NCBI RefSeq assembly: GCF_024362485.1
Contig: NZ_CP101456.1
Location: 2,604,001-2,668,000 of the forward strand
Direction of reading: 5' to 3'
DNA: 64,000 nucleotides
DNA from: Natronobeatus ordinarius
GTDB taxonomy: Archaea; Halobacteriota; Halobacteria; Halobacteriales; Natrialbaceae
Shown here: in pieces, positions 46,574-51,479 of the stretch
Position numbering within the stretch: the stretch's first letter is position 1
Layout of the letters: every line of letters begins with the position of its first letter
The notes under the pieces: generated by a model
The model's database searches: none
Seen by the model: only the letters and a program-made list of their open reading frames with translations
Told to the model about the DNA's origin: nothing
Position numbers and translations under genes: made by a program

Positions 46574-48424
46574 TCAGTCATCCGCCAGCTCGAGTTCGGT
46601 GACCGCTTCGGGCTCGAGCGGCGCGTACCGGACGATGGCGTCGAACGCCTCGAGGGGGAGCCGATCACCCGTGGTGATCCCGCGTGCCTCGGGCGTCCGG
46701 AGCTGTCGGTCCACGAAGCGTCGAGCGACGAGGGCCGTGCGGGCGTCGCCGTTCTCGAGGCCGGCCTGGGCTTCCTCGAGCAGCAAGGCGGCGGTGAAGA
46801 CGTCGAAGAGGTAGTGGGCGAGACGTTTCGCCGAGAGCTGGGCGTACGCTTCGCCTTCGCTCGCCAGCGTGGCCAGCGCGGCCGAGAGGTCGGCGAACTC
46901 GGCCTCGACCGCCTCGACCGGCTCGGCGAGCGCTGGGTGGGCGGCGGCCTCGAGTCGCGCCTGGACGGCTTCGACGTACGGCTCGTGGGACGCCTCGCGC
47001 TCGAGCGCCCGGAGGACGTCGAGCGAGAGGACGTTCTCGGTGCCTTCCCAGATGGGGAGTACCTGGGCGTCCCGGAGCAGTCTGTGAGTGACGAACTCGT
47101 TCACGTAGCCGTTGCCGCCCTGGATCTCCATGGCGTAAGAGGCCGTATCGACGGCCATCCGGCCGGTTCGAAGCTTCGCAATCGGGATCAACAGCCGCAG
47201 CAGCCGGTAGACGTTCTCGACGTCCTCGCCGGCGCTCGTCCGGTTCTCGCCGTTTCGCTCGGCTCGCTCGCGTTCTGAGAGCAGCCGCGACGCCTCGAAC
47301 GTAAAGGCCGTGGCGGCTTCGTGGTCCACGGCCATATCCACGAGGTCCGCGCGCATCAGCGGGAACGCGTCGATCGTGCGGCCGAACGCCTCGCGGTCCG
47401 CGGCGTGAATTTTGCTCTCGAGCAGTGCCCGGCCGATGATCCCGCACGACGCGGCGGCGTTCGACAGCCGCTCGAGGTTAAGCATCTCGGCCATCTGCTT
47501 GAAACCAGATTCCGCCTCGCCAACGAGAAACGCCGGCGTCTCCTCGAACTCGACCTCGCCCGTCGGGACGGAGATCGTTCCAAGCTTGTCCTTCAGCCGG
47601 CGGTAGAACTGGTCGTTGAGGGCGTCTCCCGGCGGCGTTCCCGAGAACGCGGCGCGGCGCCCCTTCGTGAGGACACCGTCGTCCGGGTCGCCGTGAGGGA
47701 CCAGAAACATCGAGAGGCCGGCGGTTCCCGCAGGGGCGTCTTCGGTCCGGGCGAGCGCGAGCGTGCCCTCGGCGTCGATATTCGAGCAGAACCACTTCTC
47801 GCCCGTGAGCCGCCAGCAGCCCGCCGACTCGTCGTACGCGGCGCGCGTCTCGTTCGCCCCGACGTCGCTCCCGCCCTGTTTCTCGGTGAGGAACATCGCC
47901 CCCTCGATCAGGTCGTCGTGCTCGCGGCTGACGAGGGCGTCGTAGTAGGGCTCGAGGGACCCGTCGTCGAACTTTTCGAGGACGAGCGCCGCGCCGGCGG
48001 TCATCGCCACCGGGCAGGCGAGTCCGCCGTCGGCGTACGACAGCAGGTACAGCATCCCGAGGTAGTGGCTCAGGGGCATCGGCTCGTCCCGTCCCGGCGG
48101 GGCCCGGAACGAGTCGGAAACGGTGCCCGCCTCGTAGACCAGCCGCTCGCTCTCGAGCAGTTCGGCCGGGTAGCGGACGACGTTTTGCACCTGGCCGTAC
48201 GCGTCGTAGGGCTCGAGTTCGGGTCCGTGGTCGTCGACGTAGTCGGCGTTGTCCGCGATCGTGTGTCCGACGATTTCGCCGAACGACTCGAGTCGGGGTA
48301 CAGCCCACTCGAACTCGTCGGCGGCGTACACCCGGCGCAGTTCGCGCTGGATCGTTCGGTCCAGCTCCCAGTAGTTGACGTGTCGTCCCTTCTCGAGCTG
48401 TCCGTAGTCGATTCCCTCGCTCAT
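46574..48424 (-). CDS. AidB-like acyl-CoA dehydrogenase
   Basis: The 616-residue flavoprotein has the acyl-CoA dehydrogenase core (FLTEKQGGSDVGANET, WRLTGEKWFCSN, a later TASYAMEIQGGNGYVNEF and LLRDAQVLPIWEGTENV) and long extra N- and C-terminal regions typical of the AidB branch. AidB-like proteins are linked to alkylation response in bacteria; a fatty-acid role is equally possible. The ATG at 48424 is 166 bases from the divergent actin-like gene. Confidence 0.9.
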   Translation of the reverse strand: MSEGIDYGQLEKGRHVNYWELDRTIQRELRRVYAADEFEWAVPRLESFGEIVGHTIADNADYVDDHGPELEPYDAYGQVQNVVRYPAELLESERLVYEAGTVSDSFRAPPGRDEPMPLSHYLGMLYLLSYADGGLACPVAMTAGAALVLEKFDDGSLEPYYDALVSREHDDLIEGAMFLTEKQGGSDVGANETRAAYDESAGCWRLTGEKWFCSNIDAEGTLALARTEDAPAGTAGLSMFLVPHGDPDDGVLTKGRRAAFSGTPPGDALNDQFYRRLKDKLGTISVPTGEVEFEETPAFLVGEAESGFKQMAEMLNLERLSNAAASCGIIGRALLESKIHAADREAFGRTIDAFPLMRADLVDMAVDHEAATAFTFEASRLLSERERAERNGENRTSAGEDVENVYRLLRLLIPIAKLRTGRMAVDTASYAMEIQGGNGYVNEFVTHRLLRDAQVLPIWEGTENVLSLDVLRALEREASHEPYVEAVQARLEAAAHPALAEPVEAVEAEFADLSAALATLASEGEAYAQLSAKRLAHYLFDVFTAALLLEEAQAGLENGDARTALVARRFVDRQLRTPEARGITTGDRLPLEAFDAIVRYAPLEPEAVTELELADD

Positions 48425-48590
48425 ACGCGCTCGGTTGGTGACTATCGACCATAAACGTGCAGCCAGATAACACGACGCACGTTTACTCGAGTTTGCCCCG
48501 GCTGCTGTATCGACCGGTGTCCGACCGCTAATTTTCAGTTCTGGTACTCGGAGGGGAACGACCAAGAGGCCGCCCGCGGTTTCCGGGGGC

Positions 48591-51479
48591 ATGGTACACG
48601 GCCTCGACATCGGAACGGGGGCGCTTCGATCGGTCAGCGGGGAGCCCAACGACCTGGCGCTCGAGTCGGAGCCGCCGATTGCGCTGGCAACCGACGAGTC
48701 GACGCTCGAGTCGGCCGGCGTGGATCCCGACGCCTGTCACGCGATCGAGCGGAACGGAGCGACGTACGTCCTGGGTTCGGACGCGGCAACCGTGGCCGAG
48801 TCGACCGGCGACGAGCCGGTTCGATTGCTCGCGAACGGTTTTCTGATCGGCGATCGCTACGCCGAACCCGCACTCGAGGCGCTCTTCGACGGCCTGCTCG
48901 CCGACGTGGCCGACGGGCGACTCTGTTACACCACGCCCGGCCCGCTCGTCGATGCCGACGAACCAGCCGAGGCACACCGGACGAGCCTGGAAGCGATCCT
49001 CGAGGATCGAGGCGTCGACGCGACGGCGGTGACCAGGGGGTTCGCCGTGATCTACGATCAGCTCGAGGCAGACAACTACACCGGGCTCGGCGTCTGCATC
49101 GAGGCGGGAACGACGAGCGTCGCCCTCGCGTACTACGGCGTGCCGGTGATGGCCGTCTCGCTCTCGAGCGGCGGCGAGTGGATCGTCGATCGCGTCGCCG
49201 AGGAGACCGGCACCTCGCGAACGGACGTCGCCGCGACGCTCGAGGAGTTCGCGCTCGATCCGAACGCCGCGGCCGGCGAGGTAGAGCGCGCGCTGGCGCA
49301 GGCGTACGACGCCCTCGTCGGGGAGTTGATCGCCGCGATTCAGGCTGCGGCCGCCGAGGCCGACCTCGAGCGAGGGATCGCCGTCCCGGTCGCCGTCGGT
49401 GGCGACCGCGCCGTCGAGGGCGTCGAATTTCTCCTCGGCGGACGGTTCGACGCGGCGACGCTCCCCTTCTCGATCCGTGGCGTTCGGCTCGCTGACGAGC
49501 CGGCGCGCTGTCCGGCTCGCGGCGCGCTCGCAGCCGCCCGGGACGACGTGGACGCCTACGAAGCCGTCACCTGGTCGGACGCCTCGAGCGACGACGACGC
49601 GCCCGCAGTTGCGACGTCGGCCGACGACGAACGCGCTGACACGCTGGCGTTCGACGAACAACCGGTCGAGCACGACACCGACGCCAGCACGGATGCGGCC
49701 ATCGACCGGCTGTTCGACCGCCTCGCGACCCGCGACGAGGAGATCGAAACGGTCGCCGAAGCGGTCGACGAACTCGTCGCGGCCCACGACGCCCTCGAAC
49801 GGCAGAGCGCGGCGGCCGCGGACGTCGACCGGCTCGACGATCGACTCGAGGAGCTCGCCGACGACCTCGCGGCCCTCGAGCGCGAAACCGACGCGGACGT
49901 CGCCGATCTCGTGGACGATCTCGACGCGATTCGAGAGACGCTTCGGTCACTCGAGGACCACCTCGAGTCGGTTTCCGGAACCGTCTCGACGGTCGAAGCG
50001 CGTGTCGCCGACGAGCGAGCCACACTCGAGGACCGACTCGACGACCTCGCCGCGACTGCAGCGACCACCGCCGACGTCGAGGACGTTCGATACGACCTCG
50101 AGACCGTGGCCGACGACCTGTCGGGAGTCGACGACCGGCTCGAGACGGTCCGGACTCGCGCCGAGGGACTCTCCGGGCGGATCGAGGAGGTTTCAGAACG
50201 AGCCGGCGCCCGGCTCGACAGACTCGACGATGACGTGGGTGAGCGGTTCGATCGGCTCGACGAGAGCGTGGACGAGCGGTTCGATCGGCTCGACGAGAGC
50301 GTGGACGAGCGGGTCGAAACCCTGGAAGCCGACGTCGAGGACCGCGTCGGCGGGCTCGAGACCGACCTCGAATCCATCGACGAGGCGGTGACGGCACTCG
50401 AGGACGACCTCGGAACGCGACTCGACTCGATCGGGGACGAACTCGACTCGATCGAAAACGACCTCGACGACGTTCGGACGTCGGCCGAGGACCGACTGGA
50501 TGCCCTCGGCGAGTCGGTCGAAACCCTCGAGGGGAACGCAGTGACCGGCGACGAACTCGCCTCGGTCGAGGCCGACGTCGAACGGCTCGAAACGCACCTC
50601 GGTGAGACGACGGCGACGCTCGAGGCCGACGTCGAGGCCACAACGCAGTCACTCTCCGATCTCGAGGTCGCCACTGAGACGCTATCGACGGCCCTCGACT
50701 CGATTGACGGCGACTTCGAGAGGGTCGACGGTCGACTCGAGACGGTCGACGAAACGCTCGACTCGCTGGCGGCCGACCTCGAGACGCTCGAATCCACCGT
50801 CGACGACGCGGCGAGTCGTGCGGCCGTCGACGCCGTCGACGAACGCTCCATCGACCTCGAGACGCGTCTCGGCGACCTCGAGTCGTCGTTCGAGGAGGTC
50901 CAGTCGACGCTTTCGGCCGTCGAGGCCGACGTCTCGGCGCTGTCGACCTCGATCGCCGACCGGACGACCCCGGCGTCGGCGGACGATCTCGCGACGCTCG
51001 AATCACGCCTCAACGAGATCGCGAGGGAAGCCGACGACGCAGCAGCCGCCGATGCCGTCGACGAACTCCGCGCTGCACTCGAAGTGCTTCAGGCGGACTC
51101 CGACACGAGAGCCGAGACCCTCGAGACGGTCTCCGACGACATCGAGGCTGTCGACGGCTCCCTCGAGGCGATCCAAGCGCGCATCGAGACGGCGACGGCT
51201 CGGCTGGATTCGCTCGAGTCGGCGCACGAATCGGACACGTCGACGCGGGACTCGGGCGACGAGGTCGACGCAGCCGCGGTGGCTGCGCTCCGGGAAGAGC
51301 TCGAGGCCGGACAGTCAGCGCGGCGAGCCGGCGTTGTGACGCCGGTGCTGGCGGGTGGTGGCGGTGCTGGGCTCGTCGCTGGCGGCGCGTTCGTACTGGC
51401 CGGTGACGCATCGCTCGGGCTCGGGGCTGTCCTCCTCGGCGTCGTTCTCGTCGCTGGGGCGGTGTATTTGTCGTCGTAG
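48591..51479 (+). CDS. Actin-like (ASKHA) ATPase fused to a giant coiled coil and membrane anchor
   Basis: The 962-residue protein has three parts. Residues 1-325 look like an actin/MreB/Hsp70-fold ATPase: phosphate-1 LDIGTGALRS (5-14), phosphate-2 CIEAGTTSVALAYYG near 170-184 (with E171 where MreB has Asp), followed by SLSSGGEWIVDRV, and adenosine motif PVAVGGDRAVEGVEFLLGG near 265-283. Residues about 390-905 are a long acidic coiled coil with Leu/Val heptads. Residues 914-962 hold two hydrophobic helices. I infer a membrane-bound cytoskeletal or scaffold protein. Confidence 0.8.
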   Translation: MVHGLDIGTGALRSVSGEPNDLALESEPPIALATDESTLESAGVDPDACHAIERNGATYVLGSDAATVAESTGDEPVRLLANGFLIGDRYAEPALEALFDGLLADVADGRLCYTTPGPLVDADEPAEAHRTSLEAILEDRGVDATAVTRGFAVIYDQLEADNYTGLGVCIEAGTTSVALAYYGVPVMAVSLSSGGEWIVDRVAEETGTSRTDVAATLEEFALDPNAAAGEVERALAQAYDALVGELIAAIQAAAAEADLERGIAVPVAVGGDRAVEGVEFLLGGRFDAATLPFSIRGVRLADEPARCPARGALAAARDDVDAYEAVTWSDASSDDDAPAVATSADDERADTLAFDEQPVEHDTDASTDAAIDRLFDRLATRDEEIETVAEAVDELVAAHDALERQSAAAADVDRLDDRLEELADDLAALERETDADVADLVDDLDAIRETLRSLEDHLESVSGTVSTVEARVADERATLEDRLDDLAATAATTADVEDVRYDLETVADDLSGVDDRLETVRTRAEGLSGRIEEVSERAGARLDRLDDDVGERFDRLDESVDERFDRLDESVDERVETLEADVEDRVGGLETDLESIDEAVTALEDDLGTRLDSIGDELDSIENDLDDVRTSAEDRLDALGESVETLEGNAVTGDELASVEADVERLETHLGETTATLEADVEATTQSLSDLEVATETLSTALDSIDGDFERVDGRLETVDETLDSLAADLETLESTVDDAASRAAVDAVDERSIDLETRLGDLESSFEEVQSTLSAVEADVSALSTSIADRTTPASADDLATLESRLNEIAREADDAAAADAVDELRAALEVLQADSDTRAETLETVSDDIEAVDGSLEAIQARIETATARLDSLESAHESDTSTRDSGDEVDAAAVAALREELEAGQSARRAGVVTPVLAGGGGAGLVAGGAFVLAGDASLGLGAVLLGVVLVAGAVYLSS
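50241..50306. repeat. Perfect 33-bp tandem duplication in the coiled coil
   Basis: Positions 50241-50273 and 50274-50306 are identical and encode ERFDRLDESVD twice; a third, diverged unit follows. Eleven residues equal one hendecad, so the duplication keeps the coiled-coil register. It suggests the rod changes length by unequal exchange. Confidence 0.85.

Follow-up and report, generated by a model that had tools for sequence, protein, structure and literature searches.

The actin relatives of haloarchaea include salactin and volactin. Salactin from Halobacterium salinarum has an actin fold and belongs to a haloarchaeal family of dynamic filaments (PMC10746226), and it is described as broadly conserved in haloarchaea. 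For Haloferax volcanii, one paper calls volA the only identified actin homologue (PMC7617734), and in another the tips alone of volactin filaments are reported to contact the membrane (PMC10869688). Here, we describe a protein that has in common with VolA (HVO_2015; PF25216) the domain family of its residues 1–316. VolA, however, is about 340 residues long, has neither a coil nor a membrane segment and carries strictly invariant motifs, whereas this protein, which we call long volactin, has eroded motifs and about 640 additional residues.

The window, that is the whole stretch of 64,000 nucleotides analysed, contains an open reading frame with an ATG start codon and a product of 962 residues. 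This start is supported by the MxxGLDIG N-terminus conserved among its orthologues. The gene is real and the layout of its product is tripartite: a volactin head, a coiled coil and a hydrophobic C-terminus. The features discussed below are as follows.

48527..48569, + strand: upstream DNA element (ATTTTCANNTCTGGTAYT...AA...CNAAGAGG), conserved in orthologues
48591..51479, + strand: long volactin gene, 962-residue open reading frame, layout shared by orthologues
48591..49538, + strand: actin-fold volactin domain, residues 1–316 (Pfam PF25216, AlphaFold, Foldseek)
49089..49118, + strand: degenerate phosphate-2 loop, residues 167–176 (GVCIEAGTTS, against an invariant GISFGAGMTN in VolA)
49392..49427, + strand: degenerate adenosine motif, residues 268–279 (by comparison with VolA)
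49539..49679, + strand: acidic linker, residues 317–363, predicted to be disordered (pLDDT below 50 in the full-length model)
49680..51323, + strand: acidic coiled coil, residues 364–911 (periodicity, helix in the model)
49698..49748, + strand: junction box where the coil begins, residues 370–386 (AIDRLFDRLATRDEEIE), conserved in orthologues
51324..51473, + strand: glycine-rich hydrophobic hairpin, residues 912–961, predicted membrane anchor (hydrophobicity in orthologues)

The head matches the Volactin family of Pfam (PF25216) with E = 2.7e-114 and 382 bits (cut-off 35), and it covers the profile entirely (positions 1–321 of 321). Its AlphaFold model, built on 18 orthologues, has a mean pLDDT of 87 and a pTM of 0.86. 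The closest solved folds found by Foldseek are those of MreB, BeeR, MamK, FtsA and actin; the top match is MreB (4czj; E = 2.4e-13), and the TM values are approximately 0.6–0.7 for the MreB, BeeR and MamK matches. The head as modelled has an actin fold. This relationship with MreB and actin emerges from fold comparison only, as no relatives were found in the PDB by sequence, using either the single sequence or a profile.

Beyond the linker, the hydrophobic residues of the coil recur with a period of about 3.5–3.55 residues (z = 23 versus shuffles of the same residues), and the full-length model, used for its secondary structure alone (mean pLDDT 65.6), places helices from residue 364 to residue 911 with short breaks. 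Asp and Glu make up 31% of the coil, lysine and proline are nearly absent, and 11-residue repeats can be discerned by eye in the sequence near residues 547–568. Among the first 19 full-length orthologues the total length ranges from 575 to 1264 residues, so that the stalk does not serve as a ruler with one set length. The middle of the coil varies in both length and sequence and is poorly conserved; the two ends, with the junction box and the Gly-rich hairpin, are highly conserved. The junction box has the consensus AIDQLFDRLANRDEEI in 49 of 62 distinct orthologues; Ala370 and Leu378 are invariant in the underlying alignment (A3), with Leu374, Phe375, Asp376, Arg377, Arg381 and Asp382 nearly so. 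A search for it elsewhere in the genome returned one insignificant match only. Lying between the linker and the coil, AIDQLFDRLANRDEEI is a candidate docking or dimer-register motif. The shortest orthologue of the first full-length set (L074, 7373–9100; 575 residues) has a coil about 165 residues long and keeps both the junction box and the hairpin, making it a natural minimal long volactin.

Two hydrophobic windows are present at the C-terminus of all 60 distinct orthologues compared, and 50 of the 60 have Arg or Lys among their last six residues. The second segment alone is modelled as a helix in the full-length model, and the first, being glycine-rich, is possibly a re-entrant or loosely packed segment. 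The best reading of this hairpin is that of a predicted membrane anchor. No hydrophobic segment was found at the N-terminus of the window protein and, under the positive-inside rule used for topology, the head, the coil and the extreme C-terminus would be cytoplasmic.

The initial annotation had proposed an actin-like N-domain followed by a long acidic coiled coil and a two-helix membrane anchor. The N-domain is upheld by the Volactin match, the pTM of the model and the Foldseek hits to MreB, and the coil by its period and modelled helix; the full-length orthologues that we read are unsplit and contain the coil. For the anchor, the two hydrophobic segments hold in every orthologue, whereas a helix is modelled for the second only. 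The N-domain had been presented as an ASKHA type within an undescribed layout, and its membership of a known family, volactin, had been overlooked, as had the ordinary volactin of the same genome, the conservation of the layout across a family and the private upstream element.

To characterize the nucleotide site, we compared 42 VolA sequences with 59 long forms. In the VolAs, the phosphate-1 (KGLDVGTMN), phosphate-2 (SFGAGMTN) and adenosine (TGGTSS) motifs are essentially invariant. The long forms keep Asp6 (58/59), and with it the fold-core residues, as well as Thr175 and Gly271 (both 59/59), and phosphate-1 GLD(I)G is largely kept. Of the positions fixed in VolA, they do not keep eight of ten in phosphate-2, eight of 11 in the adenosine motif and four of eight in phosphate-1; the adenosine motif, VTGGTSSPxG in VolA, becomes AGxGAxEG with a one-residue deletion. 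As far as the alignments indicate, part of this loss is overall faster divergence: the mean column entropy is 1.43 bits for the long forms versus 0.27 bits for VolA, and the variability of phosphate-2 in the long forms is about that of an average column. Residues of nucleotide motifs usually withstand fast divergence. Judged from these comparisons, the nucleotide site of the long forms is degenerate, and its erosion suggests that ATP turnover is weakened or lost, while ATP binding may persist.

These comparisons bear on the earlier view that all three nucleotide motifs are present in a working ATPase, with Glu171 standing in for the phosphate-2 Asp. The phosphate-1 motif does retain Asp6, but phosphate-2 and the adenosine motif are mostly lost relative to VolA, and the erosion of residues invariant in 42 VolAs weakens the notion of a working ATPase. 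Glu171 aligns with a loop glycine, present in all VolAs, and this position varies among the 59 long forms (Gly in 30, Glu in 21, Asp in five and Arg in three). When the MreB motif DIGGGTT is set ungapped against long volactin, the catalytic Asp presumably falls at residue 169, which is Cys in 45 of the 59 long forms (Cys169 here) and Ser in all VolAs. Since the catalytic phosphate-2 position is then residue 169 and not residue 171, the argument built on Glu171 falls.

The ordinary volactin of the same genome is encoded elsewhere and is 36% identical to the head over 323 residues. We surveyed 125 genomes from the family to which the window belongs (Natrialbaceae, judging by named relatives); their best volactin matches are either long frames or frames of about 350 residues. 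The long form occurs in 88 genomes, each of which has a further volactin match, and its hosts include Natribaculum, Natrinema, Natronorubrum, Haloterrigena, Natrialba, Halobiforma, Halopiger, Halovivax and Halorubellus. As 36 of the 37 genomes without it have VolA alone, the long form is accessory. In two other haloarchaeal families (f7 and f10), five genomes encode a second volactin whose frame spans 780–909 residues; these proteins (L150–L154) are divergent and share the layout, with a different hairpin sequence and no upstream element.

A tree of 57 head domains groups the long forms of the main family in one clade (100/99), which the f7/f10 forms join (93/99), all of them outside VolA; its root is not secure, given a very distant outgroup. 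The tree gives no sign of repeated recent fusions to VolA. We considered whether the long form could be an orthologue of VolA of the HVO_2015 type and rejected this, as the genome contains a separate VolA and the long forms make up a distinct clade: it is a paralogue. By its sequence relationships, long volactin is an ancient volactin paralogue and a conserved family. An identity with salactin was likewise rejected: the salactin-like sequences used as outgroup, assigned by sequence type and not by name, form a separate, distant clade (100/100, branch 3.5). A search of this genome with one distant query found no salactin-like actin.

The gene is preceded by an element of about 40 bp, the TTTT run of which is 59 bp away from the ATG in the window, and 58–59 bp from the start codon in nearly all orthologues read. 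After ATTTTCANNTCTGGTAYT it has a conserved A and conserved CCAA and AGG positions, with one set of the conservation counts coming from sequences chosen by the first part of the motif. This genome has one exact site and one further site with two mismatches. The 125 family genomes have 72 exact sites in 71 genomes, and all but one of these (G062:C1:375661) precede a long volactin; none occurs in the 37 family genomes lacking the long form. The element is also absent from the early-branching members, namely the f7/f10 forms, L155, L156 and L169. An in-frame start codon is lacking and the changes within the element, assessed by eye, do not look synonymous, on which grounds we take it to be possibly a gene-specific promoter or operator, perhaps an unusual haloarchaeal one. 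Two other possibilities were discarded. As an RNA, it has no match in Rfam, and folding of the alignment gives a consensus of −3.2 kcal/mol with weak covariation and no convincing structure. As the mark of a regulon, it would be expected before other genes, where it was not found either in this genome or in the 125 family genomes.

The divergent gene upstream encodes an acyl-CoA dehydrogenase (46574–48514; similar to AidB and acyl-CoA dehydrogenase 11, with the Pfam domains AidB_N and ACDH-11_C), and on the 3′ side lie a convergent cupin gene and a gene for an MFS transporter. Different neighbours, of a housekeeping kind by inspection, flank the gene in other genera (PEP carboxykinase-, MOSC-, MFS-, cupin- and ribosomal-protein-like). 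The gene order around long volactins across genera revealed no conserved partner gene and gave no functional hint. Because the neighbours vary between genera, the element travels with long volactin and not with them, and its being private to this gene suggests a tightly controlled dose.

What might such a protein do? The initial annotation had offered a membrane-tethered cytoskeletal or a chromosome/envelope-linking role, of which the membrane-tethered cytoskeletal one remains the best reading. We tentatively favour, at somewhat less than an even chance, a reading in which a degenerate volactin, anchored in the membrane, holds VolA filaments by the tip or seeds them there. In such a protein, the actin-fold head, its nucleotide site decayed, would lie in the cytoplasm on a stalk held by a two-segment membrane hairpin, and both ends of the protein would face the cytoplasm. 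The coil would form dimers or bundles, and the stalk could reach up to about 80 nm if fully extended (548 residues with a rise of about 0.15 nm each). The head, which would no longer cycle ATP as VolA does, could cap or seed VolA filaments by joining their end (or side) as a subunit, and the filament tips would thereby be tied to the membrane. This would fit the report that the tips alone of volactin filaments touch the membrane (PMC10869688). Moreover, a paralogue of a filament subunit that is held at the membrane and freed of the constraints on a subunit resembles an end-binding partner, and the presence of VolA alongside the long form in all 88 family genomes supports this model. Tip contact as such does not need the long form, since H. 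volcanii shows it with volA as its only identified actin homologue (PMC10869688; PMC7617734) and no long form known there; H. volcanii gives a signal in our family search. A bolder version, which we consider rather doubtful, makes long volactin an archaeal, Arp-like and membrane-bound actin relative, nucleotide-decayed and with an 80-nm stalk; it would nucleate or cap VolA filaments at the membrane and set their attachment site.

The heads could instead polymerize together, with or without nucleotide, into a self-sufficient membrane-bound cytoskeleton that the coil would set off from the membrane. The best solved relatives (MreB, BeeR and MamK) are all filament formers, and the retention of most of phosphate-1 and of Thr175 speaks in the same direction; yet the nucleotide motifs are among the parts relaxed relative to VolA, a head on a long stalk would be sterically awkward in a dense polymer, and the fast divergence shown by the entropies is unlike that of VolA, so that we regard this as quite unlikely. 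Similarly, the actin fold could be reused for binding, as it is in FtsA or PilM, in a membrane tether for a partner other than VolA, such as the chromosome, the division machinery or a chemosensory array. A degenerate site and an accessory distribution would suit a recruited adaptor, FtsA is among the Foldseek matches and the conserved junction box could be a docking site, but the lack of a conserved partner gene nearby and a head that is still plainly volactin by its profile leave this on the unlikely side. Decay into a paralogue with little function might be suspected from the fast evolution and from the 37 of 125 family genomes in which the long form is missing; it is made highly improbable by frames that stay open over 575–1264 residues in the full-length orthologues first read and by the strong conservation of the junction box, the hairpin and the upstream element. 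Finally, coiled-coil families do score (ASRP with 78 bits and SMC with 60 bits), as a rod-like structural protein of the SMC or Rad50 type would lead one to expect. Both scores fall well short of the family cut-offs and concern the coil only, and the head has the actin fold and is no ABC-ATPase with Walker motifs; such a protein is hardly credible here, a relationship with SMC or Rad50 being ruled out by domain content. Under the favoured reading, a membrane-anchored volactin acting on VolA filament tips, long volactin is a concrete candidate anchor wherever it is present, for filaments whose anchors and regulators are described as unknown (PMC10869688).

Long volactin can finally be set against other systems that join a cytoskeletal fold to a coil or a membrane. 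The salactin-like actins have the actin fold and the haloarchaeal origin in common with it, but those that we read have neither a coil nor a membrane anchor. FtsA and PilM are likewise actin-fold proteins, through which a partner filament or complex is attached to the membrane. FtsA makes its membrane contact with a short amphipathic helix at the C-terminus and lacks a 500-residue coil. In magnetotactic bacteria, MamK/Mad28 and coiled-coil Mad proteins cooperate in positioning (PMC12748827); there, the actin-like and coiled-coil parts are separate proteins, whereas long volactin unites them in one. The nearest parallel that we found is the haloarchaeal FtsZl1 family (Huta_2051), in which a cytoskeletal head is followed by an extended coiled coil (PMC2875224). 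It realizes the idea of a head with a coil on the tubulin side, with an FtsZ fold, a helical C-terminal globular domain and membrane regions that are exceptional (PMC2875224), whereas the N-domain of long volactin is of the volactin/actin type and not FtsZ-like. The family of this N-domain is already known and named; the long paralogue with its coil and anchor is unmentioned in the passages on volactin and salactin that we read, and is apparently undescribed, although an earlier description is possible. The archaeal cytoskeleton thereby gains a second actin paralogue, one that evolves fast and carries its own stalk and anchor, compared with the single identified homologue of the model species (PMC7617734).
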